This document shows positions 3,489-61,700 of a stretch of 64,000 nt of DNA, in pieces. Each line of letters opens with the position of its first letter. Positions within the stretch are counted from its first letter, which is position 1. The translations under genes and the position numbers were made by a program. The DNA comes from Winogradskyella flava (GTDB lineage: Bacteria > Bacteroidota > Bacteroidia > Flavobacteriales > Flavobacteriaceae): the NCBI RefSeq assembly GCF_014243395.1, contig NZ_JACLCP010000004.1, positions 248,001-312,000 on the forward strand, written 5' to 3'. The notes beneath the pieces were generated by a model. That model saw only the letters and a program-made list of their open reading frames with translations, did no database searches and had not been told where the DNA came from.

Positions 3489-4793
3489 TTAATTCAATGC
3501 CGATTTGTAGGTTGCAAGGCAACGCTCACGAGCTTCTTTATGATCCACTATGGGTTGAGGGTAAGTTAACTCTTGATAATCTGGCACCCATTTTTGTATA
3601 TACTTATGTTCCTTATCAAATTTTTGAATTTGTGATGTCGGATTAAAGATTCTAAAATAAGGAGCTGCATCTACACCAGAACCTGCGACCCATTGCCAAT
3701 TACCAACATTGCTTGCCATTTCATAATCATGTAGCTTTTCTGCAAAATAGGCTTCTCCCCAACGCCAATCGATTAATAGATGTTTACATAAAAAACTGCC
3801 CACCAACATACGAACACGATTGTGCATAAAGCCGGTTTTATTGAGTTCTCGCATACCTGCATCAACTAATGGATATCCTGTTTTGCCTTGACACCATAGC
3901 TTGAATTCTTCTTCATTGTTTCGCCATTCAATCCTATCGTATTTAGATTTGAAAGCCTTGTCTTTGGTATGTGGAAAATGCCATAATATTTGCATAAAGA
4001 ACTCTCGCCAAATCAATTCTTGCCAAAAGATTTCATTCTTTTCGGCAATGGCTTTTTTCATCATTTTACGAACACTAACAGTACCAAAGCGTAAATGTGG
4101 ACCTAATCGTGATGTCGCATCTTTTGCAGGAAAATTTCGTGTTCCCTCATATTCTTGAATCAAGATTGGTGTAACTTCATATGGAGCAATCTCCTGTGAG
4201 GATTTTTCAAAACCTATATCAGACAAGCTTAAGTTGGGCAATCTGGAATGTTCTATAAGATTAGATAAATAACTGTTGGTATAGAAAATCTCTAAATCAA
4301 TAGTCTTGAATTTTTCTTTCCAGGTTCGCATATAGGGCGTGTAGACTACATATGGATCTCCATCTTTTTTTACAACTTCATCTTTTTCAAATATTACTTG
4401 ATCCTTATAAGTTTGAAATGTTATGTCATTGTCATTTAACAACTTTTCAATGGAGTCATCTCGCTCCTTTGCATAAGGCTCATAATCACGATTGGTATAC
4501 ACGGTGTCTATATGGTAATCCTCCATAAGTTGCTTGTATATTTCAAATGGCTTGCCGTGATGCATGGCAATACTACTGCCATGTTCCTCTTGAAAGGTTT
4601 TTCTCATTTCTTGGAGCGTTTCATGAATAAACGTTACACGCGCGTCATCTTTAGGCAGTTTATCTAATATTTCAGAATCGAAAATAAAAATTGGCAAAAC
4701 AGGATGGTCTCCTTTTAGTGCTTCATAAAAACCGACATTGTCATCTATTCTTAAGTCTCTGCGAAACCAAAAGATATTCACTTTTTCACTCAT
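3489..4793 (-). CDS. phr: Deoxyribodipyrimidine photolyase (class I, CPD type)
   Basis: This flavoenzyme repairs cyclobutane pyrimidine dimers using blue light. The 434-residue protein has the N-terminal antenna-binding Rossmann domain (VNIFWFRRDLRIDDN, residues 5-19) and the C-terminal FAD domain with WRWGEAYFAEKLHDYE, then ASNVGNWQWVAGSGVDAAPY and FRIFNPTSQIQKFD, the classic PhrB signature. The C-terminal KWVP motif is also present. It is the last gene of the 14-kb minus-strand cluster and is separated by 72 nt from the SRPBCC gene, with a weak -7-like box (TATCTTTT) in the gap, so it may also have its own promoter. Class assignment (CPD rather than 6-4) rests on these motifs. Confidence 0.93.
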   Translation of the reverse strand: MSEKVNIFWFRRDLRIDDNVGFYEALKGDHPVLPIFIFDSEILDKLPKDDARVTFIHETLQEMRKTFQEEHGSSIAMHHGKPFEIYKQLMEDYHIDTVYTNRDYEPYAKERDDSIEKLLNDNDITFQTYKDQVIFEKDEVVKKDGDPYVVYTPYMRTWKEKFKTIDLEIFYTNSYLSNLIEHSRLPNLSLSDIGFEKSSQEIAPYEVTPILIQEYEGTRNFPAKDATSRLGPHLRFGTVSVRKMMKKAIAEKNEIFWQELIWREFFMQILWHFPHTKDKAFKSKYDRIEWRNNEEEFKLWCQGKTGYPLVDAGMRELNKTGFMHNRVRMLVGSFLCKHLLIDWRWGEAYFAEKLHDYEMASNVGNWQWVAGSGVDAAPYFRIFNPTSQIQKFDKEHKYIQKWVPDYQELTYPQPIVDHKEARERCLATYKSALN

Positions 4794-8978: not shown

Positions 8979-10472
8979 TTATTCGTTTCGAAGCATACGT
9001 TCTCTATCACTTATAGTATGTCGTTTAAGAATCCTAAAACTTTCACGTAATACCTCAGGATCTTTCTTCATATTCCAAAGAATATCGCTTGCACGTTTTC
9101 GGTTTTCCTTAATATTTACTATAGGATAAGGATAATCTTCGCCCAGCTTAAAATTGTAGAGCGCCTGTTCCATTTCAGTTATTAAATAAGGCTCATGTAC
9201 AAATACTGTATCTAGATGTGCTAATTCGGGTACCCATTTTCTAATGAACGAGGCGTCAGGATCATGTTTATGGCCATTTATGGTCGGATTGTAAATTCTT
9301 AGGTTATTAATCCCTGTCTCACCGGCCTGCATTTGTAATTGTGGAAAATGAATACCTGGTTCAAAATCCAAAAACTGTTGTGAAAGGTGTGTGGTAGCAG
9401 ATTGCCAAGGTTGCCAAAGGATATGCGTAAAAAAAGAAGCAAGCATGGCACGCATTCTAAAATTCACATAACCTGTTTCAATCAGGCAGCGCATACTTGC
9501 ATCAACGAGAGGGAAACCTGTTTGTCCCTCGCGCCAGGCTTTTTGATAGTCTTCTGAAATGCTCTTTTTTAATTTATGATAACCCTTATTTACACTTGCG
9601 TTTTCCATGGTATGTTCCATTTCGAACTTTTGAATAAAATGTGCCTGCCATCTTAGTCGAGATAAAAATGCGCCAATATGACGTTTGTCTTCAGAGTTTT
9701 CTTTTATCACATTGCCTTTTTGGAATACTTGTCGTATGGACAGGTTTCCCCAAGCGATATACGGTGAAAGTCTGCTACAGCTCGTTCTTGATGCCTCTGG
9801 TTTTGATATGTTGAACATATAGTCGCTATGACGACCGTCAAAAAATGAATTGGCATATTTCCAAGCCATGGAACTTCCACCTTTTTGAAATTTTGTATCT
9901 GCTGGTGTCTCTAAATCCGCAATCGTAAACACTTTTTCTAGTGATTCAATAAGATCTAGTGACAAAAGTTGATTTTCCTTAGGTCGAAAGACTTCTAGCT
10001 CTCTATGCATATAGGCTTCCCAATTTTCAAACCAATGATCTCTATTTAATAAACCACGCTCAACGCCATTATTTTTACTTTCTTCCCATTTGATGAAGTT
10101 ATTTCTACAATAGCGTGTAAATTCTTTATCTCTATTGTAAGTGACTAATAAACCGGTTTCGACATGCGAATAGATGGTGTCGACCTTGTAGAATTCCTGA
10201 ATAAGATTAAAGACACTTTGTATGTCACTAGTAACAGTTAAAATTTTTGTGTTGTAGGTTTGTAATTGGCTGTTAAGGTCTCTAAGTGATTCTTTAATGA
10301 AGTTAAAATGGCGTTCACTATAGTGTTCGTCATTTAATAGCAAATGCTCAAAAACATAGAGCAGAAGAGTGGTTTTACTAGATTTTAAGGCATTAGCGAT
10401 AGCCTCGTTATCCTCGAGTCTTAAGTCGCGCTTTAGCCATACTACGTTGATATGTTCTTTAGAATTATTCAT
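8979..10472 (-). CDS. Cryptochrome/photolyase family FAD-binding protein
   Basis: The 497-residue protein has an N-terminal photolyase alpha/beta domain (INVVWLKRDLRLEDNEAI) and a C-terminal FAD domain with TSCSRLSPYIAWGNLSIRQV, GQTGFPLVDASMRCL and MRAMLASFFTHILW. The segment replacing the CPD-photolyase GNWQW region reads FEPGIHFPQLQMQAGETGIN, followed by LRIYNPTINGHKHD. This divergence means the subclass and substrate are not clear; it could be a repair enzyme or a cryptochrome-like photoreceptor. Its ATG overlaps the stop of the FeS-BCP-like gene by 8 nt, so the two are translationally coupled. It is the last gene of light operon A. Confidence 0.88.
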   Translation of the reverse strand: MNNSKEHINVVWLKRDLRLEDNEAIANALKSSKTTLLLYVFEHLLLNDEHYSERHFNFIKESLRDLNSQLQTYNTKILTVTSDIQSVFNLIQEFYKVDTIYSHVETGLLVTYNRDKEFTRYCRNNFIKWEESKNNGVERGLLNRDHWFENWEAYMHRELEVFRPKENQLLSLDLIESLEKVFTIADLETPADTKFQKGGSSMAWKYANSFFDGRHSDYMFNISKPEASRTSCSRLSPYIAWGNLSIRQVFQKGNVIKENSEDKRHIGAFLSRLRWQAHFIQKFEMEHTMENASVNKGYHKLKKSISEDYQKAWREGQTGFPLVDASMRCLIETGYVNFRMRAMLASFFTHILWQPWQSATTHLSQQFLDFEPGIHFPQLQMQAGETGINNLRIYNPTINGHKHDPDASFIRKWVPELAHLDTVFVHEPYLITEMEQALYNFKLGEDYPYPIVNIKENRKRASDILWNMKKDPEVLRESFRILKRHTISDRERMLRNE

Positions 10473-11940
10473 CCAAGCTTTTCAAAAATTTTTCTGCGTT
10501 ATTGAAATGGTTCTCCAAAGTTTCTTTTTTCATTCTATCCAAATTACCCAAGAGCATTCCTAACCTAGGATTTCCTGAAAAGAAATCACGGTGTTTATCC
10601 ATAAATGTCCAAAATAATCCATCCCAAGTGTCCTGCCAATCGCCTTTTGAGTAATTGCTCATTTTCATAATATAGTTGCTGCTGCTGATATATGGTTTTG
10701 TAGACATTAAGCCGCCATCAGCATACAGGCTCATACCATAAACATTGGGTACCATAACCCAATCATAAGCATCGATGAACAATTCCATAAACCATTTATA
10801 AACCTCGTCTGGATCGAACTCACACAATACCATGAAGTTGCCCAGTATCATGAGGCGTTCTATATGATGTGCATAACCCGTTTTAATTATTTTTTTTATC
10901 ACATCGTCAATAGGTTTAATACCCGTGGTGCCATTGTAGAATGATGCTGGTATTTTTCGGTTAAAGTTCCAAAAATTCTTAGTGCGTTCTTCAGTACCTT
11001 TTACTTCGTAAACACCGCGAATAAACTCTCGCCATCCGAGTATTTGACGAACAAATCCCTCTGTTGAATTGATTAGAACGTTATTCGATTTTGCATAATC
11101 TATAGCGCTTTCAATGACGTCTGATGGATTGAGTAATCCAACATTAATAAGTGGCGATAGGATGCTGTGATTTAGAAAATGCTCTTCTTTGACAATAGCA
11201 TCTTCGTAGGGTCCGAATTCGTGAAAGCGTTGTTTGAAAAATTGCTGTAACCAATCTTCAGCAGATTCAAAATCTATAGGGTAAATAGTGAATTCGGTAA
11301 GCTGCCCATAATGATTACTAAAATTTGAACGCACATAATCTTCTGCTTCCTTGTGATACGATGTTTGATCTGGAAATTGAATGTTTGGCGGTGTCTTATC
11401 TTTCGGGTATTTCTTTCGGTTATCACCATCATAAGTCCATTTCCCGCCCTCAGGTTCATCCGAAACCATTAAGATATTTCGCTCTTTACGCTGGTCTTTA
11501 TAGAATGATGTTTGAAAGAATTTCTTTTTAGAGGGTTTAAAGAACGAACTGAGTTCTTTTTTGCTATTAATGAAAAGGGGATTCCCATACCATTCTACAC
11601 TAATATCTTTTGAAACGCAATTAATGTGCTTTTCTAGCCAATTGTCTGTTGGATCTATGATATGAAGTTTTTCAACCCCTTTATTAATAAGATGTGGAAT
11701 CAATTCCCTAGCATCGCACAAATTTGAAGTCGCTTCAATATAGTTTACTATTTTGTTCTTGTCCTGTAAATATTCCTCATAAGCTTTCATTGAAGCCCTG
11801 TGAAATGCGATCTTTTGTTTATGGAATTTATAATGTTTGAAGAATAAAAATTCTTCTATGAGATATATATCAGCATCGATCTCAAGAATTGGTGAATTCT
11901 TGAAAAGTTGATGTGGGAATATGAGTATGGCTTCTTTCAA
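10465..11940 (-). CDS. Cryptochrome/photolyase family protein of the bacterial (6-4)/FeS-BCP type, lacking the Fe-S cysteines
   Basis: The 491-residue protein aligns by eye with Agrobacterium PhrB-type (6-4) photolyases: YLIEEFLFFKHYKFHKQKIA (26-45), HRASM (47-51), GWREFIRGVY (302-311), YAHHIERLMILGNF (356-369) with the catalytic His pair H358/H359, and YDWVMVPNVYGMSLYADGG (392-410). Known members bind a [4Fe-4S] cluster through four Cys. Here only three Cys exist (75, 108, 373), none at a ligand position. The usual Cys-rich segment after the NYI.KMS motif is replaced by a short SKGDWQDTWDGLFW (431-444), and the upstream ligand position reads Pro. The flavin and lumazine-type antenna remain expected. 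It lies downstream of cry-DASH across a palindromic repeat. Confidence 0.9.
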   Translation of the reverse strand: MKEAILIFPHQLFKNSPILEIDADIYLIEEFLFFKHYKFHKQKIAFHRASMKAYEEYLQDKNKIVNYIEATSNLCDARELIPHLINKGVEKLHIIDPTDNWLEKHINCVSKDISVEWYGNPLFINSKKELSSFFKPSKKKFFQTSFYKDQRKERNILMVSDEPEGGKWTYDGDNRKKYPKDKTPPNIQFPDQTSYHKEAEDYVRSNFSNHYGQLTEFTIYPIDFESAEDWLQQFFKQRFHEFGPYEDAIVKEEHFLNHSILSPLINVGLLNPSDVIESAIDYAKSNNVLINSTEGFVRQILGWREFIRGVYEVKGTEERTKNFWNFNRKIPASFYNGTTGIKPIDDVIKKIIKTGYAHHIERLMILGNFMVLCEFDPDEVYKWFMELFIDAYDWVMVPNVYGMSLYADGGLMSTKPYISSSNYIMKMSNYSKGDWQDTWDGLFWTFMDKHRDFFSGNPRLGMLLGNLDRMKKETLENHFNNAEKFLKSLDE

Positions 11941-11970
11941 TTTTTTTGTTTAAGTTGTTTTTTCTCTTTT

Positions 11971-12053
11971 ACACCCCTAAAGTCCCCTCAAGGGGACAAC
12001 AGTTTCTATGTTTGTTTTTAAAGAATGTTCTCTTGTGGGGACTTCAGGGGTGT
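11971..12053. repeat. Palindromic intergenic repeat between two photolyase genes
   Basis: ACACCCCTAAAGTCCCC (11971-11987) pairs with GGGGACTTCAGGGGTGT (12037-12053) with one mismatch, and a nested hairpin GTCCCC-TCAA-GGGGAC lies at 11982-11997. Its GC content is far above that of its surroundings. From memory, similar CCCCTAAAGTCCCC palindromes are dispersed between genes in Flavobacteriaceae. It nearly fills the 115-bp gap in the operon and could attenuate or process the transcript. Confidence 0.7.
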
Positions 12054-12055
12054 TC

Positions 12056-13360
12056 TTAAAACAAACTCGGTTGCAACCACAGATTTCTAAACTTACCATT
12101 GGCATCGTAACGTTCTGCCTGTAGTTGTACATTAAATTTTCTATCTCTTGGGTCATTGCCAACACCAGCAACATACATCCAATTGCCATAATTACTATGT
12201 ACATCATAATCTAGTAATAGTGATTCAAAATAAGATGCACCAATACGCCAATCTAATTCTAATTCTTTCGCGAAATATGACGCTACATTTTGGCGACCTC
12301 TATTGCTCATCCAACCTGTTTCTTTAAGCTCAATCATATTGGCATTAACAAAGTCAGACTGTGTCTCGCCGTTGATCCATTTTTCAATTTGTATTTTGTT
12401 TGATGACCACTCGTAATCTTTTTTAAGAATGCCCTCTAGCTTAAAGATTTGGTTGCCATGTTTCAAGGATACATATTTAAAATAGTCGCGCCAAATCAGT
12501 TCAAAAATGAGCCAATAGGTCGATTGATTCTTATAATGCTCTTTTTCAAATTGTTTGACATTCCAGTAAATTATTCCGGCAGAAATACTACCATTCGCTA
12601 GCCAAGACGAAAACTTTGAGCTATAATCTACACCCACTAAACCATTTCTTGTTTTCTTGTAAAACCCTAACTTTTTAGTGTTAAAGAAATAGTCATTCAA
12701 GCGTTTTATGGCTTCAGTCATCCCACCTTTAAAGGGAAATGCCGAATGTGGATGTCTTTGGAAATCTTCAAAACCTAAATCACCCAATGTTGGAATGGTA
12801 GTATTGTTATCTATCCTTAAGTTTTCTGTTTGCTTTTCAATTTTCAATTCTTCCCGTATCTCTACATATTTCTCTAATTTCTTTCTAAATACTGTAAATA
12901 CTTGTGGTGTCTTGTAAATGTTGAAATTGATATCATCAGGATGAAATAAAAATTGATTGTAAATGGGATGCCATGTCACGTCTTCGATTTTAGACTTTAC
13001 CAAATTCTCGGTATCCACTTCCTCCTGTGTCCATTCGTTTTGCAGAAAAATGTCAGTAACCTGATGTGATTCGCAAATTTTTGGAATTACGACTTCAGGT
13101 AAATCGTGGTAAACCAATAAATCAATATTGAGCCTGTGGAGTTGTTCCTTAAGGTCTTGTAGTGTTTCTATTAAAAATTGAGCTCTGAATTTTGCAGTTT
13201 TTTTGAATCCAAATGGATTGACCTCAAAATGTTTTGGGTCAAAACAATAGACGCCAAGGACTTCATTGCCATCTTTACAAGCTTCATGCAGAACAGCGTT
13301 ATCTATAGTCCTTAGATCATTCCTGAACCAAACTAAATGTCTTTTTTCTGCCTTCTGCAT
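12056..13360 (-). CDS. DASH family cryptochrome
   Basis: Cry-DASH proteins bind FAD and a folate antenna and repair CPDs in single-stranded or loop DNA. The 434-residue protein has [20 protein letters not shown] (9-28), [17 protein letters not shown], then [40 protein letters not shown] and [20 protein letters not shown], the last two being DASH signatures. The ATG lies within the 3' end of the DUF2256 gene (28-nt overlap), consistent with the common pairing of these two families. Confidence 0.93.
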
Positions 13361-16921: not shown

Positions 16922-17578
16922 TTAATTCATATGCATTTTCTCCTTGTACAAAAATTTACCTAGATCAATAAGGCTCTTGTAGGGTGTCGTGTCTATTAAA
17001 TCGAAACTAGCTCTGACAGACTTTTCTATAAACAAATCCGTTTTCTCAAAACCTGTAGAGGTATCCTCCATCCAAAATTTCATGGTGACGAGTAGTTGTA
17101 ACCAAGCCGTTTCCTTAAGACTTCTATTCTGAATCTTGGATAATTGTTCTTGTTTTAAATCAATTGTTTTAATATTGAGATGCTCAATGTAATTTGTAAA
17201 TCTTCTCTTGAGTTGAGATAGTGTTCTAAGTGACTTTAGCGAATTTTTATCACCGCCTAAAGCATGCATAACGTAACTTCTATTGGCTGTTAAGATTTCA
17301 AAAAATGTGTAATAAAAACTGAGTAGCTTATTACGTGCATCAAATGTTAAATAATCTTCACTTTTCTCTAAGACTGAATGAGCATTGTCAAAAAAGATTT
17401 TAAATATGGACTTTTCTAGCGAGTCGAAAGACGTGAAGAACTCATAGAACTTTTGTTCTTCCATATTATTTGACTTAGCAAACGCATATACAGACTTAGG
17501 TTGCTCATCGTGTGTCAATACATAATCCATGTAAGCACTAATGATATCGTTTTGTGAAAATGATTTCTTCTTTGCCAT
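16922..17578 (-). CDS. TetR/AcrR family transcriptional regulator
   Basis: The 218-residue protein has an N-terminal TetR-like DNA-binding domain (NDIISAYMDYVLTHDEQPKS, then VYAFAKSNNMEEQKFYEFFT as the helix-turn-helix) and an all-helical C-terminal domain (KETAWLQLLVTMKFWMEDTS). It is the first gene of light operon A, 22 nt before the ABC1 kinase gene. An inverted repeat overlaps its own promoter, so autoregulation is plausible. Because the same repeat occurs at two other light-gene promoters it could control them too, but a MerR/CarH-type light regulator elsewhere is an equal alternative. Confidence 0.88.
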   Translation of the reverse strand: MAKKKSFSQNDIISAYMDYVLTHDEQPKSVYAFAKSNNMEEQKFYEFFTSFDSLEKSIFKIFFDNAHSVLEKSEDYLTFDARNKLLSFYYTFFEILTANRSYVMHALGGDKNSLKSLRTLSQLKRRFTNYIEHLNIKTIDLKQEQLSKIQNRSLKETAWLQLLVTMKFWMEDTSTGFEKTDLFIEKSVRASFDLIDTTPYKSLIDLGKFLYKEKMHMN

Positions 17579-17678: not shown

Positions 17679-18347
17679 TTAACAGTCATCATCGCAGCAG
17701 TTGTCATCTTTAACTAATTTACAACTACTAACGGCCAATAAAGCGCCAATAAAAGGTGCTGTAATATACAGCCATAAATGCTGTAGATTCCCAGAAACTA
17801 TGGCGGGTGCTATAGACCTAGCAGGATTCATAGAGGCTTTTGTCATTGGGCCAGCAAACATAGCCTCGAGAAGAATAACGGCACCTACCGCAATAGCGGC
17901 CATTGTGCCAATTTCTTTACTTCCTGTAGATACATTGATAATAACAACCATTAAAAAGAATGTTAATAATAATTCAAAAATAAAGGCTTTATAAGGCGCA
18001 AATCCTTCTGCAGGATAGGTGTGTCCATAGCTGTTACTTTCGGGAAATAAAATCCATAAAATAGCAATTGCTAGAAATGCTCCGGCCGTTTGAAACAAAA
18101 TATATTTTGGTACATTCTTCCATTCGAATTTTTTAGCAAATGCGAATGCCACGGTTACGGCAGGATTAAAATGTGCACCAGAAATCTCACCAAAGGCATA
18201 TATCATAGCCATTACTACAAGTCCCCAAGTTGTGGCGACACCGACGTGTGTAATACTTCCTCCCGTAATTTCATTAATGGTCATGGCGCCACAACCGCAA
18301 AATACCATGGTAAATGTGCCGATTAACTCTGCTATTTCTTTTCTCAT
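17679..18347 (-). CDS. MIP family channel protein (aquaglyceroporin) of an arsenic-type operon
   Basis: The 222-residue protein has six membrane helices and both NPA boxes: GAHFNPAVTVAFAF and KASMNPARSIAPAIV. In Sinorhizobium an aquaglyceroporin (AqpS) replaces the ArsB pump in an arsR-aqpS-arsC operon and lets arsenite leave the cell. The same logic fits here since no ArsB/Acr3 pump is nearby. The C-terminus ends CKLVKDDNCCDDDC, which is unusual for the family and may bind metalloid or metal. It is the last gene of the operon, 58 nt after the arsC-like gene. Confidence 0.92.
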   Translation of the reverse strand: MRKEIAELIGTFTMVFCGCGAMTINEITGGSITHVGVATTWGLVVMAMIYAFGEISGAHFNPAVTVAFAFAKKFEWKNVPKYILFQTAGAFLAIAILWILFPESNSYGHTYPAEGFAPYKAFIFELLLTFFLMVVIINVSTGSKEIGTMAAIAVGAVILLEAMFAGPMTKASMNPARSIAPAIVSGNLQHLWLYITAPFIGALLAVSSCKLVKDDNCCDDDC

Positions 18348-18405
18348 CTTAAATATTTCTTTATTAGGAACTGGATTCTTGTAGTATGCACAGGAATAAC
18401 AAGCA

Positions 18406-19044
18406 TTAGTCCTTAATCATTGAAAACACATATTTCAATTCCGTTGCAATTTGAAGACTACGTTCTCTATATTTTTCAGCTTGTTGAGGTGTGTTATCAA
18501 AGGCTTTGGGGTCTTCAAAAGTCATGGGAATACGTCGCTCTGCTCCAGCAATAAATGGACAACCTTTATCTGCGCTAGAACAGGTCATAATTGCCGCAAA
18601 CTCTTTAGCGGGATTAAAATCTGCATCAAAAGTCTTTGAAAATCCAATCACGGGATGGGCCGTTTCAGAATATGTAATGGCATACACTGGATTAGCTTCA
18701 TTGGAAAGCTTTTCGATTTTAAATCCAGAACTTATCAATGCTTCGGCGGCAGATGGAAATAAGGCAGTGGCCTCAGTTCCACCAGAATAGCAAAATACAT
18801 TGTTAATCTCAAAATAATGCGCTATAGTTTGTGCCCACACTTGCGATAAATGGCTGCGACGTGAGTTATGCGTGCAAATAAAGTTGAGGTTTATGATTGA
18901 ATCAGTGTTTACCTTATTTTGAATAAAGTCAATCAGCGGTAGTAACAGCTCTTTTCTTGCTGTAGAAATCGAAGAAGTATCTAAGTCTTCAATTTGGATT
19001 TTAATAGTTGGGTATGGCATTGTTTCTTTAAATAGGGTCTCCAC
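18406..19044 (-). CDS. arsC: Arsenate reductase-like low-molecular-weight phosphatase
   Basis: The 212-residue protein has the CX5R P-loop (FICTHNSRRSHLSQVWA) of the low-MW tyrosine phosphatase/thioredoxin-coupled ArsC fold, and a later CSSADKGCPFIAGAERR motif that supplies redox Cys. It is longer than classic ArsC (about 130 residues) because of an N-terminal extension and a mid insert, as in the Bacteroidota protein-tyrosine-phosphatase/ArsC group. It would reduce arsenate to arsenite in the cytosol. Context with arsR and an aquaglyceroporin supports this over a phosphatase role. Confidence 0.85.
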   Translation of the reverse strand: METLFKETMPYPTIKIQIEDLDTSSISTARKELLLPLIDFIQNKVNTDSIINLNFICTHNSRRSHLSQVWAQTIAHYFEINNVFCYSGGTEATALFPSAAEALISSGFKIEKLSNEANPVYAITYSETAHPVIGFSKTFDADFNPAKEFAAIMTCSSADKGCPFIAGAERRIPMTFEDPKAFDNTPQQAEKYRERSLQIATELKYVFSMIKD

Positions 19045-19074
19045 TAGCCTTGACCTAGCAGAATGAATTAATAA

Positions 19075-19545
19075 TTAGCAGCAACCAGAATCTGGTGAGC
19101 AACAAGAGGATTGTTTTTGTAAATCTGAAAGCCTCACTTTTGGTTTTTCACTTGGAATTCCACAGTTGTCTTTTGCCAAACAATCTGTTTGTTTTGTGGT
19201 TAAAAGGAAGTTCCTACCATCAAAGTCTAAACCAAATTTACCTATGGTATCGCCTTGATATTCTACTTCAATATCTAAATCGGCAATATTCAATACCTTT
19301 TCAGAGAGTTTTATGATGCTTAATAGTTTTTCAGGATGTAATCTGTGATCATAATCATTGGCTTCCCAAAGTTGAAAATTAACAACTTCTTCGTGTCTTA
19401 AAGTACCACCACAATCAATAAAGTCTTTAGTGATTTTACCAACTTCCGTGACATGAAAATGATTAGGGACTAATTCTCCATTTGGCAATTGAAACGCAAT
19501 GGTATCTAGCGTTTTTAATTCTGATTTTATTTCTGATAGTTTCAT
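19075..19545 (-). CDS. DUF6428 family protein with cysteine-rich tail
   Basis: The 156-residue protein contains LPNGELVPNHFHVTEVGKIT and FQLWEANDYDHRLHPEKLLS, the DUF6428 pattern found in Bacteroidota ars-type operons. The last 14 residues contain two Cys pairs and end SSCCSPDSGCC, suggesting thiol binding of As(III) or a metal. It lies between the membrane protein gene (10-nt gap) and the arsC-like gene (30-nt gap). Function is not established; metalloid chaperone or sensor is inference. Confidence 0.85.
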   Translation of the reverse strand: MKLSEIKSELKTLDTIAFQLPNGELVPNHFHVTEVGKITKDFIDCGGTLRHEEVVNFQLWEANDYDHRLHPEKLLSIIKLSEKVLNIADLDIEVEYQGDTIGKFGLDFDGRNFLLTTKQTDCLAKDNCGIPSEKPKVRLSDLQKQSSCCSPDSGCC

Positions 19546-19555
19546 GATTTTTGGT

Positions 19556-20125
19556 TTAGCAGCAAGTCATTCTTAATCGATTTATATTCCAGAGTTTTTT
19601 TCCAAAGTCCAATGTTAAAAGTAGATGAACAATTCCTAGAATAATAGCACCTGGCAGTATGTTTACAGCAATGAGCTGGACAGTTTCAAAACTAGGATAC
19701 GTCATAAAATCTGTAGTGTAGGCGATGCTGTTACCTTCAATTTTAATTCGTGCTGCGATTATCAATACAATAGCCGCAAAATGAAAACTATTCGCGAATA
19801 GGTGTAGTATATATTCCCATTTTGGTAAACCATTCATAAAGCTTCGGCTTTCTTTTTCAGAATAAGCATCTAGGCCAAGAACAATTAAATCTATGATAAC
19901 AAAAGCTAAACCGATGCAAAATCCGACTACGCTAGTATCTATGAACAATAACCATACTATTAAAGGGAATAGAATAGCTCTAGCGGTATGTGTTTTATGC
20001 TCAAACAAGCTTTCCGATCGATTAAATAATTCATACTTCCATAAATGCAGATATGCACCGTCATAGGTTGCTAAAAGCATAAAAACAATTAAACATGTAA
20101 CAGACAAAAAGAATAGGATTTCCAT
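19556..20125 (-). CDS. Hypothetical membrane protein of the ars-type operon, ends in Cys-Cys
   Basis: The 189-residue protein has about five hydrophobic segments (MEILFFLSVTCLIVFMLLAT; AILFPLIVWLLFI; VGFCIGLAFVIIDLIVLGL; FHFAAIVLIIAARI; IAVNILPGAIILGIVHLLL) and ends RLRMTCC. I recognise no named family. It has no obvious transporter signature. It sits directly after arsR (29-nt gap), so a role in metalloid response is inferred from position and from the shared C-terminal cysteines. Confidence 0.75.
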   Translation of the reverse strand: MEILFFLSVTCLIVFMLLATYDGAYLHLWKYELFNRSESLFEHKTHTARAILFPLIVWLLFIDTSVVGFCIGLAFVIIDLIVLGLDAYSEKESRSFMNGLPKWEYILHLFANSFHFAAIVLIIAARIKIEGNSIAYTTDFMTYPSFETVQLIAVNILPGAIILGIVHLLLTLDFGKKLWNINRLRMTCC

Positions 20126-20154
20126 AAATATTACTATTTAAAATGCTGCTGGTT

Positions 20155-20484
20155 TTAACAGCAGTTTATGTTGTTTAAATCTTGATTAAAAAATGCAGTT
20201 AATAATTGTTTCATCTTTGACCATTTTTCTTGATTTATGCAATAGCAAACACTTGTGCCTTCAATTTTGCCTCTAATAAGCCCCAAGCTTTTCAGTTCTT
20301 TGAGATGTTGTGAGATAGTGGCTTGTGCCAATCCGATTTCATCAACTAGATCACCACAAATACAAGCATTAGCCTTAAAAATTTGTTGTAAGATGGCTAC
20401 TCTTGCAGGATGTGCAAAGGCTTTTGCTAGAGTTGCAATTTGATTCTGGGTATCGGTGAAAATTTCGCTTTTAGTTAACCCCAT
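20155..20484 (-). CDS. arsR: ArsR family winged-helix metalloregulator
   Basis: The 109-residue protein shows the ArsR/SmtB fold: IATLAKAFAHPARVAILQQI (alpha1-2), CICGDLVDEIGLAQATISQH (recognition helix, with a CxC pair resembling the As(III)-binding CxC of ArsR) and LKSLGLIRGKIEGTSVCYCI in the wing. It ends NINCC, adding a vicinal Cys pair. As(III) binding would release it from the palindrome at 20500-20515 and turn on the operon, including itself. Confidence 0.92.
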   Translation of the reverse strand: MGLTKSEIFTDTQNQIATLAKAFAHPARVAILQQIFKANACICGDLVDEIGLAQATISQHLKELKSLGLIRGKIEGTSVCYCINQEKWSKMKQLLTAFFNQDLNNINCC

Positions 20485-20499
20485 AATATTATTTAATTA

Positions 20500-20515
20500 T
20501 AATATTGCAATATTA
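20500..20515 (-). promoter_or_regulatory. Palindromic ArsR operator candidate
   Basis: TAATATTGCAATATTA is a perfect 16-bp palindrome 15 nt upstream of the arsR ATG. Its position and size match ArsR/SmtB operators. No clean TAnnTTTG box was found beside it. Confidence 0.6.
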
Positions 20516-20611
20516 CGATTAATAAAGATATGGTCAAAGAATTTATGTCATAAAAATTTACAGGAACGTCCTTTTAAGGATTTCTTAACATATAGGCCTT
20601 TAGTTAAGCAG

Positions 20612-20655: not shown

Positions 20656-21501
20656 ATGAAGAAATTAGTACTATTTGCATTTGCGTTAACATTAATGTTT
20701 TCGGTAAATGCGCAAATTGAAACACCACAACCAAGTCCTTTTTCAAAGATGGAGCAAAAGGTTGGTTTGACTGACGTTACTTTGGAATATTCGCGTCCAA
20801 GTATGAAAGGAAGAACAATATTTGGCGATTTAGTGCCATATGGTAAAATGTGGAGAGCAGGAGCTAACAAGAACACTATGGTTACTTTCAGTGATGATGT
20901 TACTGTTGGTGGTAGTGAATTGAAAGCTGGTTCTTATGCTATTTTTATTACGCCTGCTGAGAAATCCTGGGAGGTTGTTTTTTATTCAGATACGAATAAT
21001 TGGGGAACGCCAAGAGAATGGGACGACTCTAAAGTTGCTGCCAAGGTAACAGCTGAAGTTTATGATCTGCCAATGCCGATTGAAACGTATACGATTTCTT
21101 TTGATGATCTTACAAGTAGTTCAGGAGTTATAGGTATGATGTGGGAAAAGGCATATGTAGGCGTCAAGTTTGAAGTTCCTACAGATAAAAAAGTGTCTGC
21201 TTCTATAGATAAAACTATGGCTGGACCTTCTGCTAATGATTATTACGCCGCAGCGGTTTATAATCTTTCTGAAGGTAAGGATTTAGACAAAGCGAAGATG
21301 TGGATGGATAAGGCGATGTCAATGCTTGAGAATCCTGGTTTCTGGCAGTTAAGACAACAATCTTTGTTGTATGCTAAAATGGGTGATAAGAAAAATGCAA
21401 TTGCTACTGCTAAAAAATCACTTGCTGGTGCTGAAAAAGCTGAAAACGCAGATTACATAAAGATGAACAAAGCATCCTTAAAAGAATGGGGAGCAATGTA
21501 A
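20656..21501 (+). CDS. DUF2911 domain-containing secreted protein
   Basis: The 281-residue protein has a signal peptide (MKKLVLFAFALTLMFSVNAQ, cleavage after about residue 20) and a DUF2911 domain (residues about 35-180) with LEYSRPSMKGRTIFGDLVPY and MWRAGANKNTMVTF. The C-terminal third (about 200-281) looks like a helical TPR-type segment (DKAKMWMDKAMSMLENPGFW, LRQQSLLYAKMGDKKNAIAT). DUF2911 is common in Bacteroidota and uncharacterised; location is probably periplasmic. It is monocistronic with its own promoter and terminator. Confidence 0.9.
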   Translation: MKKLVLFAFALTLMFSVNAQIETPQPSPFSKMEQKVGLTDVTLEYSRPSMKGRTIFGDLVPYGKMWRAGANKNTMVTFSDDVTVGGSELKAGSYAIFITPAEKSWEVVFYSDTNNWGTPREWDDSKVAAKVTAEVYDLPMPIETYTISFDDLTSSSGVIGMMWEKAYVGVKFEVPTDKKVSASIDKTMAGPSANDYYAAAVYNLSEGKDLDKAKMWMDKAMSMLENPGFWQLRQQSLLYAKMGDKKNAIATAKKSLAGAEKAENADYIKMNKASLKEWGAM

Positions 21502-39778: not shown

Positions 39779-40528
39779 TTAAGCTTCTTCTGGTGCAGTT
39801 TTTAAAGATGAAGCAGCAACAGCTAGACCATATATCACTAGACCAAAGCCAATTTTGTTTACAGCATCACCGATATTGTAAATAACATCCATATTTAGGC
39901 CTAATCCCGCTAAACCATCATACCAACCAGGTGTACCTGCCATATAGCCCAATGGATATATTGCCCATCCTACCAAGACAAACCAGCATAATGTTTTGTG
40001 AGCACTTAATACAGCTCCTCCTGCTTGTTCTGCTAATTTTTTGGCTTCTCCGAACCAGATCATGTAAACAATGATAAAGTATGCAATACCAGAAATTAAA
40101 CCCCAAAGCCAAGCTTGATCTCTGTATACAGCTTCTCCGAAATAGCCTGTAACTAGCATTATTACTGAAAAGAAAATGAGTTTCCACATTAAAGACTTTT
40201 TAGCACCTGCCACTTTGAGAATTAAATAGAACTCAACACACATCAATGGCACTGTAAGAATCCAATCGACATATCTGAAGAAAGTTGGTGATTCCGAAAA
40301 TGCGGCCCAGTAATCTCTCATATACCAATAGTGAACAGCTGCAATAAAAGTGATTAATCCTGAAACCAGGATTGAGGTTCTCCATTTTCTATCAAAAGAA
40401 TTCATTGATAAAAAGAAAAATGCCGAAGCGGCCATCATGGCCATACATCCTACAAAGAATGTAAAGCCGACATAGTCATCTGTAGCCATTTTGCCTACAT
40501 CTGCTAATAAAACGGTTAGTAATTTCAT
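39779..40528 (-). CDS. Proteorhodopsin (green-type proton pump, fenestrated)
   Basis: The 249-residue retinal protein has seven helices. Visible key residues: H66 in AVHYWYMRD, the DTE motif D88/T92/E99 in RYVDWILTVPLMCVEFYLIL (85-104) marking an outward H+ pump, Met96 at the spectral tuning site (green), G143 in WLWGLISG where proteorhodopsin has Phe and xanthorhodopsin Gly, and the retinal Schiff-base Lys225 in GDAVNKIGFGL. Start at 40528; an upstream in-frame TTG (40552) lies inside the -7 box. It is divergent from blh, which makes its retinal. Confidence 0.97.
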   Translation of the reverse strand: MKLLTVLLADVGKMATDDYVGFTFFVGCMAMMAASAFFFLSMNSFDRKWRTSILVSGLITFIAAVHYWYMRDYWAAFSESPTFFRYVDWILTVPLMCVEFYLILKVAGAKKSLMWKLIFFSVIMLVTGYFGEAVYRDQAWLWGLISGIAYFIIVYMIWFGEAKKLAEQAGGAVLSAHKTLCWFVLVGWAIYPLGYMAGTPGWYDGLAGLGLNMDVIYNIGDAVNKIGFGLVIYGLAVAASSLKTAPEEA

Positions 40529-40549
40529 GTTAATTATTTTTTGTTTAAG

Positions 40550-40557
40550 CAAATTTA
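40550..40557 (-). promoter_or_regulatory. -7 box of the proteorhodopsin gene
   Basis: Minus-strand TAAATTTG matches TAnnTTTG, 22 nt before the ATG at 40528. Confidence 0.6.
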
Positions 40558-40632: not shown

Positions 40633-41502
40633 ATGAATTTCCCAACTTTTAATCTCATATTAACTGTTTTTCTGTTTTGGTTAACAATACAAATAGATGC
40701 ATCCCATGAGGAGTATTTATCTTACTTTTTTATATTAACGGTCGGGATTATCCATGGTTCAAATGATATTTCACTCATTAAGGTTCTAACTCGAAATACT
40801 GGGTCATTAAAAAAGTATCTTTTATTATATGTTGTTGTAATATTAGCTACTATAGTTGCTTTTGTATCATTTCCATCCTTAGCACTTTTCTTTTTTATAA
40901 TAGTGAGTTGTTACCATTTTGGTGAGCAACATTTTCATAATCAAGTTCAATCCCAGAATACATTTAGCAGGTTGTTGTTTTTTGGCTATGGTGTTTTAAT
41001 ATTTGGTTTACTTTTTTATTTTAACTCAGAAAATACCTCGATAATTATCAACGAGCTGATTGGTCATACTTTAAATGAAAATTATTTTCTCTGGTTTATG
41101 ATCGCAGGAGCGATTTTAACTTTGGTATTTTTTATACATAGTATTAGAAACTTTAAATCTAGCTTTAATTATTTTCAGGAATTGTTTCTAATCCTCTTGT
41201 TTGCGATACTTTTTAAAATGGCAGCATTATTATGGGCCTTTGCTATCTACTTTATAGTTTGGCATTCCATTCCTAGTTTGGTTGATCAGATCGGAGCACT
41301 TTATGGTAAATCCAATAAGCTAAACGTAATTCAGTACATTAAATCGTCATTTGTCTATTGGTTGATCTCCATAGCCGGGTTATATATATTATACTACACT
41401 ACCAGCTATTTCGAGATACAATTTGTTACGATATTTTTTGCTTTCTTGGCAGCCATCACAATTCCTCATGTTGTTGTTATGTATTTTTTAAATAAGAATT
41501 GA
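40633..41502 (+). CDS. blh: Brp/Blh family beta-carotene 15,15'-dioxygenase
   Basis: The 289-residue membrane protein has eight or more helices and conserved His in GIIHGSNDISLIKVL (near residue 40), VSCYHFGEQHFHNQV and YFIVWHSIPSLVDQI, plus AAITIPHVVVMYF at the end; these His residues are iron ligands in the Brp/Blh family. It cleaves beta-carotene to two retinal molecules for the rhodopsin. It shares a 104-bp divergent promoter region with the rhodopsin gene. Carotenoid synthesis genes are not in this window. Confidence 0.93.
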   Translation: MNFPTFNLILTVFLFWLTIQIDASHEEYLSYFFILTVGIIHGSNDISLIKVLTRNTGSLKKYLLLYVVVILATIVAFVSFPSLALFFFIIVSCYHFGEQHFHNQVQSQNTFSRLLFFGYGVLIFGLLFYFNSENTSIIINELIGHTLNENYFLWFMIAGAILTLVFFIHSIRNFKSSFNYFQELFLILLFAILFKMAALLWAFAIYFIVWHSIPSLVDQIGALYGKSNKLNVIQYIKSSFVYWLISIAGLYILYYTTSYFEIQFVTIFFAFLAAITIPHVVVMYFLNKN

Positions 41503-55798: not shown

Positions 55799-58700
55799 TT
55801 ATCTTTTAATAACAACGTATCCTTTTAAGGTTTTAAAATTGTGCTCACCACTAATTGAAAATTGAAAGAAGTAAGTACCATCTGGTAGTTCGCCTGCTCC
55901 CATTTTAGTTTTTTTATTAGCGACACCTCTAAAGACATTAGATGTATTGTTATAATCATTAATCTCAAAAACTAAATCTCCCCATCTATTATAAATACTT
56001 ACGGTGTTATTTGGATGCTCTTCAATACCTTCGATATTCCAGAAATCGTTAACACCATCGGCATTTGGCGAAAATCCGTATTTCACATCATTTTTTGGGA
56101 CCAAGAGCGTCGTAAATAGGCTTTCTGAACAGTTTTCAGCTTCACCATTATTGTTATAAGGAATAATTGTGACATAATAGGTTGTTATGCTTTCTAAATC
56201 ATCGTCAAAATTGTAGGTTGTTGTGAATCCAACATCGAGATTATTCACAATATCAGTACCTCCAGATACTGTACCCACTGATAATATATAACCATCAGCA
56301 TTATCTATAGATTCCCAAGTTAAATCGGTTTCTATGGCAACATCAGTGGCCCCATCAAATGGATTTAATAGCTCTGAGCAAACAGGAGTTTTTACGATTT
56401 CAAATAGTTCTGAAGCACAACCAATGGCTTCAACTATTCCGTTTATTGGGATTATGGCTACAGTGACGATTTCATTACTTAAAAATGTATTAGTAAAGTC
56501 GTAAAAGGTCTCAGTAGTTTCGAAATTGGAAATATCATTATTTTCTGTACCAGAAATTGTTACTTTATACGATGTTGCATTCGCAACAGCATTCCATGTA
56601 ATTTGATTAAGATTCGTTGCTACATCGACAGCACCACCTAATGGACTCGATAATGAAGTACAATTCGGTGTTTCAGGAATAATAGTGAAGCTTTCAGAAA
56701 TACAACCAGTAGCTTCAATTGTTTGATTAATCGGAATAATTGTTACCGTTACAATTTCCTCATTTACAAATGTATTGGAGAAGCTGTAGAATGTATCTGT
56801 TGTTTCAAAATCGATAATATCATTATTCATAGTACCAGATACAGTTACTCTGTATGAGGTTGCATTTGTAGCAACATTCCAGGTGATTTGATTTAAATCT
56901 GTAGGTACATTAACTGCACCATCCAAAGGACTTGATAAAACTGTACATTCAGGTGTTTCAGGAATGATCGTAAAACTCTCATTAGTGCAACCCAAAGCTT
57001 CAACAGTGCCATCAATAGGAATAATGGTTACGGAAACCACTTCACTATTTGTAAACGGATTTGTAAAGTTGTAGAATGTATCGGTTGTTTCAAAATCTGT
57101 GACATTATTATCGGCAGTACCAGATATAGTTACTTTATAAGATGTTGCATTTGCAACTGGGTTCCAAGTCATTTGGTTAAAATCTGTTGGTATATTAATT
57201 ACACCATTTAATGGACTCGATAGGTTAGTACAGTCAGGTATATCAGGAATAATAGTGAAGCTCTCTGATGTACAACCTGTAGCTTCAACAGTTTGGTTAA
57301 TAGGAATAATGGTTACTGTAACCACTTCATCATTCAAAAATGTATTGGTGAAGTTGTAGAATGTATCTGTTGTTTCAAAATCGGTAATATTGTTATTCGC
57401 AGTACCAGAAACAGTTACTCTATATGAGGTTACATTTGTTAAGGCATTCCAAGTGATTTGATTTAAATCTACAGCAACATTAGTGTTACCATTCAAAGGA
57501 CTTGCTAAAATTGTACAGTCAGGTGTTTCAGGAATGATGTTGAAGCTTTCAGAAGTACAACCCAATGCTTCTACAATACCATCCATGGGGATAATAATTA
57601 CGGAAACGACTTCACTATTAAGAAATGGATTCGTAAAATCATAGAACGTATCACTAGTTTCAAAATCGGTAACATTATTGTTTGCGGTACCAGAAATAGT
57701 CACTTTGTAAGACGTGGCATTTGTAACGGGATTCCAAGTGATTTGGTTTAAATCCGTCGCGACATTTGGAGCAGCATCTAAAGGGTTCGCAAGGGCAGTA
57801 CAACTTGGTGTCTCGGGAACAATAGTAAAACTCTCCGAAGCACAGCCAGTAGCTTCAACCGTTTGGTTAATAGGAATGATGGTTACTGTAACTACTTCAT
57901 CATTCAAAAATGTATTGGCGAAGTTGTAGAACGTATCTGTTGTTTCGAAATCGGTAATGTCGTTATTTGCAGTATCAGAAATGGTTACTTTATAAGATGT
58001 TGCATTTGTGACGGCATTCCACGTGATTTGGTTTAAATCTACAGCAACATTAGTAGCACTATTCAGAGGACTTGCTAGAGTAGTACAGTTTGGTGTTTCA
58101 GGAATAATGGTAAAACTTTCTGAAATACAACCTGTAGCATTTTCAGTAGCATTAAAAGGTATAATGCTTACTGCTACCACTTCACCATTTAAAAAAGGAT
58201 TGGCGAAATCATAAAATGTATCTGTTGTTTCAAAATTAGTAATATCATTGTTTGCCGTACCAGTAATAGTAATTCTATATGACGTTGCATTGGTAGCAGC
58301 ATTCCAGGTGATTTGATTTAAGTTTAATGCAACATTAGTCGCACCATCCAAAGGACTTGCTAAACTTGTACAAACCGGACTTGTGGATATCGGATCTTCT
58401 GTAGTAAATGTTTCTTCACTACAACCAGTTGCATCACCTACAGCATTATATGGAATAATGGTGACGTAATACGTTCTACTATTTTGCAGGTCATTAGGAA
58501 TATCATAAGACGTCATATTACCTACATCTATACTATTAGCGATTTCAATACCATTACTTGTGGTACCTATACTAATTAAGTAACCTGTGGCATCTGCAAC
58601 AGCATCCCAACTAATATCAGTGTTAATAACTACGTCTATTTCATTGTTAACAGGACTGCTCATACTTGTGCATAATGGTGGACGAGGAATAGTTTGTGTT

Positions 58701-61700
58701 GTAAAATTCTCTATTGCACAACTGTTGGCATCACCTTCATCATTATAAGGTGTAATCGTAACGTCTATTGATGTTTCTTCAGGGAGATCAGTATTAAATT
58801 CATATGAAGTCACATTACCTACATCTTCATTATTTAGAATAACAATACCTCCAGGATTTGTAACTACATTTAGTCTATAGCCGTTTGCATTGGTTATTGG
58901 TGACCAACTTAAATCCGTCCCTACTTCAACTTCGGTATCTCCATTTAAAGGTAAAGTCAGAGTGGTACAATCAGGAATCGTTGCAGCATCTGTTGATATT
59001 GTGAAACTTTCTTCTGTACATGGCCCAATAGCTTCACCTTCATCATTAAAGGGGATAACGGTTACATAAACAGTTTCTCCACCAGTAAAGTCCACTGGAA
59101 ATTCGTAGGTTGTCACATCACCCAAGGTTTCATTAATAATCGTACCACCTGGTTGTATGGTAATTTCTAATCGATAGCCACTGGCAAATAATACATCTTC
59201 CCAGGTTAAGTTGGTATTTACAGGAACGTCTGTGGCTCCATCCAGCGGCAAGACCAGTTGAGTGCATTCTGGAATTGGACAGTCTAAAACATCACCAATT
59301 ATGGTCCAACCGAAATTGTCGATTATACTTTGTCGCTCTTGTAAGGCGTCGCAGTATAATAATGTCGATGCACCTAGTGTTATTCCAGGTGTAAGGGTAA
59401 GGTCCGACCAAGCAATTAAAGTCGCATCATAGTTTTCCCTTGATAAGCCTGAACGATCTAACATGTTCGTAGCATTAGTAACATTACTGATATCCCAAGT
59501 CACTAAATTTTGATTAAAAGCAGTGGCATCTCTAAACATACTTCGCATAGTGACCGTACCGATATTCCAAGCATCCATGGATTGGTTATATGCTATAGCG
59601 TCCCTGAACATATTCTCCATATTTGCAACACCTGTAACGCGCCAATTGTTTAAAGTTTGATTAAATGCCGTGGCACCATAGAACATATCTTCCATGGTAG
59701 TTACAGCACGAACATTCCAGCTATCTATGTTACTGTTAAAAGCTATGGCGTCTTGAAACATGCCTTCCATAGTGGTTACAGAAGCTACGTTCCAACTAGT
59801 CATGGCTTGGTTGTATGTTGCTGCACTTCTAAACATTTCTCTCATTGTAGTCACAAATGATACATCCCAGGAATCGATACCTTGATTAAAGAGTGCAGCA
59901 CCTTTGAACATGGCTTGCATATTTAGGACCTCACCTGTATCCCAATTATCTAAAGGTTGATCAAAAGCAACTGCCTGCTCAAACATGGACATCATATTGG
60001 TAACAGAAGCAACATTCCAAGTATTCAATGGATTATTAAAAAGGGTGGCGCCATTAAACATCGAATCTGTAAGTGTCACAGAACTGACATCCCAAGAACT
60101 TAAAGGCTCATTAAAACTTGTGGCATCTTGGAACATGGAAGACATTGTTGCAACAGCACTAACATCCCAATCATCGATGGGTTGATTAAAGAGCGTTGCG
60201 CCCTCGAACATAGAACTCATATTTACAACAGAGTTAACATCCCATTGATTTAAGGGTTCGTTAAATGCAATTGCATTTTCGAACATACTAGATGTCGTCA
60301 GTACGTTGGTAACATTCCAGCTATTAATGTCTTGATTGAACAGAACAGCGTTAAAGAACATACCATTCATGTTCGTTACAGAAGAAACATCCCAAAGATT
60401 TAAAGGTTGATTAAAGGATATTGCACTAGCGAACATGCGACTCGTTATTGTAACGCTACTAACATCCCAATCATTCAGTGGCTGATTAAAGCTTGAAGCG
60501 TTGGAAAACATTTGACTCATGTTAATGACGTTACCAACATTCCACTGGGCTATGGGTTGATTGAAAGCGGTTGCCGAAAAAAACATTTCTTGCATAGTGT
60601 CTACGCTGCTAACATTCCAGCCACTTAAGTCACTGTTAAAAGCTGTTGCGCCATCAAACATTTCTTGCATTGTAGTAACACTGTTAACATTCCAATTACT
60701 TAAAGGTTGATTAAAAGCAGTTGCCCCTTTAAACATACTCTCCATAGTGGTTACATTACTCACGTTCCAATTACTTATTGGCTGATTGAATGCAGTAGCT
60801 GTTTCAAACATTCTCTGCATAGTGGTCACACTAGAAGTATCCCAAATATCAATATTTTGATTAAATGTGTTTGTTCTAAAGAACATTAAAGACATGTTTG
60901 TAACATTGCTCACGTCCCAATTGTTGAGCGGCTGATCGTATATTTCTGTTACACCAAACATTCCAAACATGTTGGTGACATTACTTACATCCCAAGAATT
61001 AATATTTCCATTGAAGTTTCTGCAGACTATAAACATTCTACTCATGTCTGTAACTGTAGATAGATTAGGAATATCCGTGGCTAGATATTCCATATTTTCG
61101 CAGCCGGCAAAACCACCTTGCATGCTTTGCCAAACTTGGGTTCCCCATTGATCTATGGATAGCAACTTCTGGGCATCACTATTAAATTCTTCATGTCGTG
61201 GAGCTGGAAAATCACCAATAATACTAATGGTATAAATACCTGGTACTAAATACGTATGTGTAATATCTCCAGTGACATTGTTGTTGTATTGTCCATCACC
61301 CCAATCGACAGAAAAATCATAAGTTATTCCTGATCTTGTTTGGAGTTTAAGCTGGTTAATAGGTGTCGTATTATTATTGTATTGAATCTGAGTATCATAA
61401 GTTAATTTAAACGCCTCTGGACTGTTTACCCAACTTTCAACAGTTTTAAAATAAATTTCTTGGCAGCCCACGGCTGGTCCTTCATCATTGTAAGGAATTA
61501 CTGTAACATACACATTGTCTCCAGGCAAAAACTCATTGGTAAAAGTGACACTAACCACATTACCGACATCTTCATTATCAAAAATTATTTGTAAAATATT
61601 ACCCATATCATCTTCTCGACGTATGCTTACGAGATAACCTGTTGCGTTAGGAGCAGGATCCCAAATGATATTTGAGTTTGCAGGCACATTAAGGTCGCCA

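Follow-up and report, generated by a model that had tools for sequence, protein, structure and literature searches.

A cysteine-tailed arsenic operon of Winogradskyella flava with DUF6428 as a candidate As(III) scavenger or chaperone-like protein

Organization of the operon and its cysteine tails

The DNA analyzed here, hereafter the window, is a 64,000-nucleotide stretch of Winogradskyella flava (contig NZ_JACLCP010000004.1, positions 248,001 to 312,000; contig C6 of genome G000 in our labeling, in which G-numbers denote genomes and L-numbers denote loci). It carries five minus-strand genes at positions 17679 to 20484, which constitute an ArsR-controlled arsenic operon; the open reading frame (ORF) list of the window agreed exactly with the coordinates given in an initial annotation. 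The genes are arranged in the order arsR (20155 to 20484), the gene for a multi-helix membrane protein termed Mem (19556 to 20125; 189 aa), the DUF6428 gene (PF20001; 19075 to 19545; 156 aa), the gene for an ArsC-like reductase (18406 to 19044), and the gene for a NIP-like channel of the major intrinsic protein (MIP) family (17679 to 18347), with intergenic gaps of 29, 10, 30, and 58 bases. A DUF2911 gene on the plus strand (20656 to 21501) and a TetR gene on the minus strand (16922 to 17578) flank the operon. The operon is a new combination, in which known parts are joined by DUF6428 and Mem.

The initial annotation had claimed that four of the five proteins end in cysteines and that the ArsC-like protein does not, and both the ORF list and a tail count confirmed this. 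ArsR ends in NINCC (terminal Cys-pair codons at 20158 to 20163, minus strand), Mem in RMTCC (19559 to 19564, minus strand), DUF6428 in SSCCSPDSGCC, with the CCSPDSGCC (CC-x5-CC) part encoded at 19078 to 19104 on the minus strand, and the channel in DDNCCDDDC (CCDDDC codons at 17682 to 17699, minus strand). The ArsC-like protein ends in SMIKD. The window holds 57 ORFs of 90 aa or longer that do not overlap, and only these four have CC within the last eight residues.

The presence of the tails in orthologous operons had been named beforehand as a check. The count drew on ORFs that span 90 aa or more and do not overlap, from the window and 120 DUF6428-bearing loci (80 plus 40). CC occurred in the last eight residues of 112 of the 116 ArsR proteins, 9 of the 10 MIPs, all four Mem proteins, and 116 of the 117 DUF6428 proteins. 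The overlap filter had dropped DUF6428 in 4 of the 121 loci; a fuller recount covering all of them gave 120 of 121, with L145 as the exception. For ArsR and DUF6428, the tail thus passed this check, and it was specific to some operon members, being absent from all ArsC-like proteins (0/103), Acr3 pumps (0/63), and ArsN-like acetyltransferases (0/19) in the sample.

It is extremely improbable that the tails arose by chance or are an RNA or DNA element read as cysteine codons. Terminator-like stems do overlap the arsR end in the window. However, only 1 of 817 proteins outside the studied families carried CC in the last eight residues in the same loci, and the terminal pair of arsR was encoded by all four synonymous combinations (TGTTGT, 39; TGTTGC, 29; TGCTGT, 24; TGCTGC, 20). 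An exact complement of the two codons within 36 bases downstream was found in 1 of 110 arsR genes, the window gene matching at five of six bases. Since all four codon pairs are used and no hairpin is conserved, selection acts on the tail as protein, and a hairpin or DNA element behind the codons was rejected. Prenylation of the tails in the manner of eukaryotic CC ends was also dropped, on general knowledge only.

ArsR sensor and its operator

The window ArsR matched PF01022 with 43 bits and was compared with 116 homologues and with a published relative, ArArsR of Arsenicibacter rosenii SM-1, which contains Cys41, Cys43, Cys80, Cys82, Cys107, and Cys108 (PMC11868830). According to the available text of that report, its authors consider ArsR proteins of this type to be common in Flavobacteriaceae. 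Six matching cysteines were found in the window protein, namely, Cys41, Cys43, Cys80, Cys82, and the terminal Cys108-Cys109, so that it has the Cys41/Cys80/Cys82 site, Cys43, and the terminal pair that mark As(III)-responsive repressors of the ArArsR type. Across the 116 homologues, C41 was conserved in 115, C43 in 113, C80 in 108, C82 in 111, and the two terminal residues in 114 and 112.

The operator ATCGTAATATTGCGAT was found upstream of the window arsR with one mismatch to the footprinted ArArsR core, also as expected for this type; the site, ATCGTAATATTGCAAT, lies at 20504 to 20519 (no strand assigned), 20 to 35 bp 5' of arsR. When up to two mismatches were allowed, the footprinted operator preceded 79 of 80 arsR genes (window and L038 to L117), 14 of 14 scorable group B arsR genes (from 20 loci), and 16 of 17 arsR genes adjoining arsM, compared with 0.1%, 0%, and 1.5%, respectively, for shuffled motifs. 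Because both the six cysteines and the operator core recur, the sequence matches tie the regulation of the window arsR to a published experiment. The arsenic-type character proposed in the initial annotation was likewise borne out by the ArArsR-type cysteines and the upstream operator.

ArsC-like reductase and NIP-like channel

The reductase is of the thioredoxin-coupled, low-molecular-weight-phosphatase type. It has the features of pI258-type ArsC, namely, a CX5R loop (Cys57 to Arg63) and a later cysteine pair (C-x6-C; Cys155/Cys162), and its match to pI258-type ArsC spans both catalytic regions. Cys57, Arg63, Cys155, and Cys162 were present in 91 of 91 aligned proteins, that is, in those of the 103 ArsC-like proteins that reach 150 aa and 50% identity.

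For the channel, the nearest solved relatives were rice NIP2-1 entries (E = 5e-39), ahead of AqpZ 2 (1e-29). Alignment to AqpZ 2 gave a selectivity filter of W41/A162/A171/R177 at what we take to be the filter positions. AqpZ has the filter F/H/T/R. The channel scored below the NCBIfam cut-off for AqpZ (140.7 of 256 bits) and does not belong to that family; with a NIP as its nearest solved relative and a wide filter, it is NIP/AqpN-like. The other aquaporin of the genome is an AqpZ (384.6 bits against the cut-off of 256) and has no tail.

Across the 299 Flavobacteriaceae genomes sampled, the channel clade (E < 1e-85) was found in 62 and Acr3 (E < 1e-100) in 154, with no genome containing both (Fisher 6e-24, kinship ignored). 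Ten genomes with a weaker or partial Acr3 match were counted as lacking Acr3 (G031, G042, G069, G142, G174, G189, G220, G243, G283, and G289), of which only G243 belongs to the channel clade; the clade excludes nine genomes with more distant MIPs and the broken copy of G034. A genome search of G000 gave no Acr3 match, ArsB not being included in that search. Among the 80 counted DUF6428 loci (window and L038 to L117), Acr3 occurred in 53 and the channel in 7 (8 with L106, which the overlap filter had dropped), never together. Channel and pump were swapped within at least four genera: g1 (G000/G157), g18 (G017/G246), g35 (G260/G034), and g64 (G279/G063).

On the basis of the filter residues and the mutual exclusion with Acr3, we infer that the channel replaces the pump here and that arsenite is exported passively. 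The proposal of the initial annotation that the channel stands in for an efflux pump agrees with this exclusion. The 299 genomes thus supply natural replacement pairs for the study of passive arsenite export.

At locus L276 (G034, C1:312800-316449), in an Acr3-bearing genome, the channel gene lies in two pieces between DUF2911 and TetR genes, as if it had decayed after the arrival of the pump.

Membrane protein and tails on other arsenic proteins

Mem matched no Pfam family; it contains EHKTHT and HxxxNxxHF motifs in addition to its CC end. Of 299 Flavobacteriaceae genomes, 7 contain it, as do 3 of 259 class genomes, the W. flava genome being counted in both. All eight homologues beside an ArsR gene have the CC end (window, L041, L046, L159, L160, L161, L162, and L163), compared with one of the three without ArsR within about 1.5 kb (L319 with the end; L164 and L318 without it); by eye, these three adjoin a Crp-like regulator gene. 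The Mem model was poor (predicted local distance difference test [pLDDT] of 61, from three sequences), and a structure search with it returned nothing below E = 0.4.

Similar tails were found on other arsenic proteins. All 21 arsenite methyltransferase (ArsM) orthologues with at least 61% identity had the tail, 15 of them with a same-strand arsR nearby; the ArsM of L217 was left out of this count. More distant ArsM proteins had it in L218 and L220 and lacked it in L219 and L221 to L224. An ArsE-type thioredoxin with such a tail was seen once, in L212.

Two side observations concern ArsM. In L111 (5500 to 6387), an Aequorivita arsenite methyltransferase ends in PCCSPDGNCC, which is identical to the last ten residues of DUF6428 in L071, L104, L106, and L112. 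The genome of W. flava also contains an arsenosugar cluster (L228; G000, C1:1049500-1057500) with ArsS (445 bits), a TIGR04282 glycosyltransferase, a purine nucleoside phosphorylase, and a dedicated ArsM (570.6 bits), which ends in a cysteine pair, GGGCC.

DUF6428 and its tail

DUF6428 is the strongest lead of this analysis. The window protein matched the Pfam family with 232.6 bits against a cut-off of 28.7 over the whole model and is therefore a member. The family was present in 230 of the 299 Flavobacteriaceae genomes sampled and in 33 of 118 genomes drawn from the phylum, and ArsR was also encoded in 79 of the 80 counted DUF6428 loci (window and L038 to L117). In the literature searched, which left most subscription journals outside its scope, we found neither a mention of DUF6428 nor a description of CC tails for aquaporins, DUF6428, or ArsM. 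Thus, for a widespread but unnamed family in an arsenic operon, a binding test could assign a function.

The family comprises two groups with about 30% identity, which share H31, T33, E34, D44, C45, G46, W60, C122, and C128 in the body and C149, P151, C155, and C156 in the tail, each of these residues being conserved in 94% or more of the 48 sequences compared; Cys45, Cys122, and Cys128 are the invariant body cysteines. Over the 121 loci, 119 proteins had an end of the form C-x5-CC, and 50 had CC-x5-CC in full. The form C-x-P-x3-CC was found in 79/80, 17/17, and 18/20 proteins of three sets. Distant members (L315 to L317) have lost the end of the profile, and their last two residues are still CC. 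In the structure model (mean pLDDT of 80.4), blocks above 80 extend up to residue 120 and residues 121 to 156 are low; the tail is thus predicted to be disordered beside a mostly confident body.

The spacing of this tail resembles that of ArsD. In R773 ArsD, the pairs Cys112-113 and Cys119-120 are separated by five residues and, in the accessible part of the report, are thought to serve regulation (PMC4562236). The window DUF6428 protein had no match to ArsD (PF06953) at E = 0.001, nor did the W. flava genome contain one. ArsD was found in 13 of the 118 phylum genomes, none of which is among the 33 with DUF6428. The ArsD proteins of Bacteroidota end in CCTPGGGCC in two of the 13 loci (L286 and L287) and in CTPGGGCC in L288; two cysteine pairs spaced by four residues were seen in eight of the 13. 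L283 has a C-x-C variant, and L289 lacks a pair.

By analogy with ArsD, we read DUF6428 as a putative As(III) scavenger or chaperone-like protein. A bolder version, which we offer tentatively and consider possible rather than probable, is that DUF6428 is an unrecognized family of As(III) chaperones or scavengers, unrelated to ArsD in fold, which replaces ArsD in most Flavobacteriaceae. The CC-x5-CC arm would then be transplantable, and the phylum would place such arms on many arsenic proteins (ArsR, the channel, ArsM, ArsD, ArsE, and Mem), so that arsenite would stay bound to thiols of proteins all the way to a passive channel.

Proposed mechanism and alternatives

Taken as a whole, the operon probably serves arsenate and arsenite detoxification, with the tails as flexible As(III)-binding thiol arms, DUF6428 as their main carrier, and a passive channel as the exit. 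As(III) would bind ArsR at Cys41/Cys80/Cys82, as suggested by the mutants of the published relative, and free the operator. The ArsC-like enzyme, judging from its three catalytic cysteines, would reduce arsenate to arsenite, and As(OH)3 would leave down its gradient through the NIP-like channel in place of Acr3. The tails most likely bind As(III), given their vicinal thiols and the ArsD precedent. DUF6428 would act as the cytoplasmic scavenger or chaperone-like protein, working in an ArsD-like manner with its body cysteines and CC-x5-CC, and the tails of ArsR, Mem, and the channel would probably add local As(III) capacity by buffering or capture rather than form an obligatory relay.

Several findings weigh against parts of this reading. 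The reductase scored below the curated ArsC cut-offs (33.5 of 215 and 32.6 of 174.3 bits), for which reason it is named ArsC-like and is not filed as an ArsC member. A profile search of the PDB gave no solved-structure relative of DUF6428 up to E = 10, and DUF6428 is therefore not linked to the ArsD fold, which is thioredoxin-like; the fold searches gave at best E = 0.15 (Foldseek) and Z = 2.8 (VIA), and the absence of ArsD and thioredoxin folds from these lists is uninformative. The exclusion between channel and Acr3 is partly phylogenetic. In R773 ArsD, chaperoning is assigned to Cys12/13/18 in the accessible part of the report (PMC4562236), not to the tail pairs, and an ArsD-like tail alone is thus no argument for chaperoning. 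In the available text on ArArsR, the mutants C43S, C107S, and C108S, tested singly, did not lower the arsenic response (PMC11868830), and no double mutant is described there; taken one by one, the residues of the terminal pair are not needed for the response. This leaves a puzzle, as the ArsR tail is kept in 112 of 116 proteins and yet each of its cysteines is dispensable for ArArsR sensing.

The channel tail adds to these points, since it is not a feature of the operon. Channels were taken as stand-alone if neither ArsR nor DUF6428 lay within about 1.5 kb; of these, 56 of 57 had CC in the last 12 residues (exception, L241). Among 18 full-length MIPs beside both ArsR and DUF6428, the tail was present in nine (window, L038, L041, L048, L055, L059, L071, L106, and L147) and absent in nine (L146, L259, L265, L293, L295, L296, L299, L301, and L312); the MIPs of L301 and L312 are more distant (41% identity), and in L312 an opposite-strand ORF precedes the MIP. 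The tail occurred in 58 of the 62 clade genomes, the exceptions being L146, L241, L259, and L265, and in two of nine more distant MIPs (45 to 57%; L267 to L275). Control of the stand-alone channels by ArsR was considered and dropped, as the operator preceded 0 of 57 at two mismatches and 1 of 57 at three.

These counts bear directly on a relay, in which the tails would hand As(III) on, ArsR or ArsC giving it to DUF6428 and DUF6428 to the channel, so that export is channeled and free arsenite stays low. The same tail on four co-encoded proteins, the spacing shared by the tails of DUF6428 and the known chaperone ArsD, and the Mem tail in 8/8 homologues beside ArsR versus 1/3 without it would fit such a scheme. 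However, the As(III)-producing enzyme and the commonest exporter, Acr3, are both tailless, half of the channels beside ArsR and DUF6428 lack the tail that nearly all stand-alone channels carry, and the single ArArsR tail mutants sense normally in the available text. A relay is therefore unlikely, and the channel counts in particular argue against an obligatory hand-off within the operon. The hand-off between sensor, chaperone, and channel suggested in the initial annotation stands only in part: a chaperone-like DUF6428 gains from its ArsD-spaced tail, but ArArsR does not use its tail for sensing and possession of the channel tail does not follow the operon. Given that the reductase, Acr3, and half of the channels beside ArsR and DUF6428 are tailless and that ArArsR works with either cysteine mutated, we favor As(III) being captured or buffered locally, with DUF6428 as the principal bearer of the tail, over a relay.

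Alternatively, exposed CC ends near the arsenic machinery might soak up As(III) as unspecific thiol ballast, with no dedicated partner or transfer. The tail does occur in at least seven arsenic-linked families of Bacteroidota (ArsR, DUF6428, MIP, Mem, ArsM, ArsD, and, once, the ArsE-type thioredoxin), the DUF6428 tail is predicted to be disordered, and neither cysteine is needed for ArArsR sensing in the single mutants described. In contrast, the co-encoded ArsC, Acr3, and ArsN-like proteins are tailless, the fixed C-x-P-x3-CC of DUF6428 is more specific than ballast requires, and a repressor is generally too scarce for much buffering. We regard ballast as rather doubtful, although less so than the relay.

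A redox or structural role instead of metal capture, in which the tails form disulfides, dock thioredoxin, or control assembly or channel opening by way of As(III)-bridged oligomers, is more improbable still. The cysteines are near enough for vicinal disulfides, this type of reductase relies on thiol exchange, and the thioredoxin-like ArsE of L212 carries a like tail; however, the accessible ArsD literature ties the same tail to As(III) regulation (PMC4562236).

Stand-alone channels lie beside DUF2911 in 48 of 57 cases and between DUF2911 and TetR in 18 of 57, like the window operon. Because the operon flanks recur around stand-alone channels in other genera, an old channel locus may have gained the ars genes, or lost them.

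Other features of the window

Elsewhere in the window, inspection of the ORF list by eye showed four photolyase/cryptochrome-like genes close together (3489 to 4793 and 8979 to 13360), a rhodopsin-like gene (39779 to 40552) adjoining a Brp/Blh-like candidate (40633 to 41502), and a 2,562-aa protein with many similar repeats (NQPLNNWDVSNVTNM...) at 55799 to 63487.

Comparison with known systems

By sequence, the solved structures nearest to the channel are those of rice NIP2-1 (Lsi1), 7nl4 and 7cjs; NIP2 filters are G/S/G/R, in contrast to W/A/A/R in the window channel. As reported previously, 18 bacterial MIPs surveyed in ars operons each occurred without another transporter, in the available text of the survey (PMC4435449), and AqpS of Sinorhizobium meliloti substitutes for ArsB, in that of a second report (PMC6205960). 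The window operon is similar in having a MIP in place of ArsB or Acr3. It differs in that a cysteine tail is unmentioned in the available texts and in that the window's channel clade lies mostly outside ars operons.

DUF6428 shares with ArsD the C-terminal vicinal cysteine pairs with CC-x5-CC spacing, further conserved cysteines, and a position near ArsR. In contrast, no sequence or fold relation between the two was found, the body of the window DUF6428 lacks a CCx4C motif, and no ArsA was noticed in the DUF6428 loci, no search having been aimed at it. ArsM (NF008823) has a tail of like kind in relatives, but no ArsM is encoded in the window operon.

The ArArsR operon has the order arsR-arsM-arsC, and no DUF6428, channel, or Mem is described for it in the available text (PMC11868830), unlike the window operon. 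The two regulators nevertheless share six corresponding cysteines, including the terminal pair, and the operator core in 15 of 16 bases.

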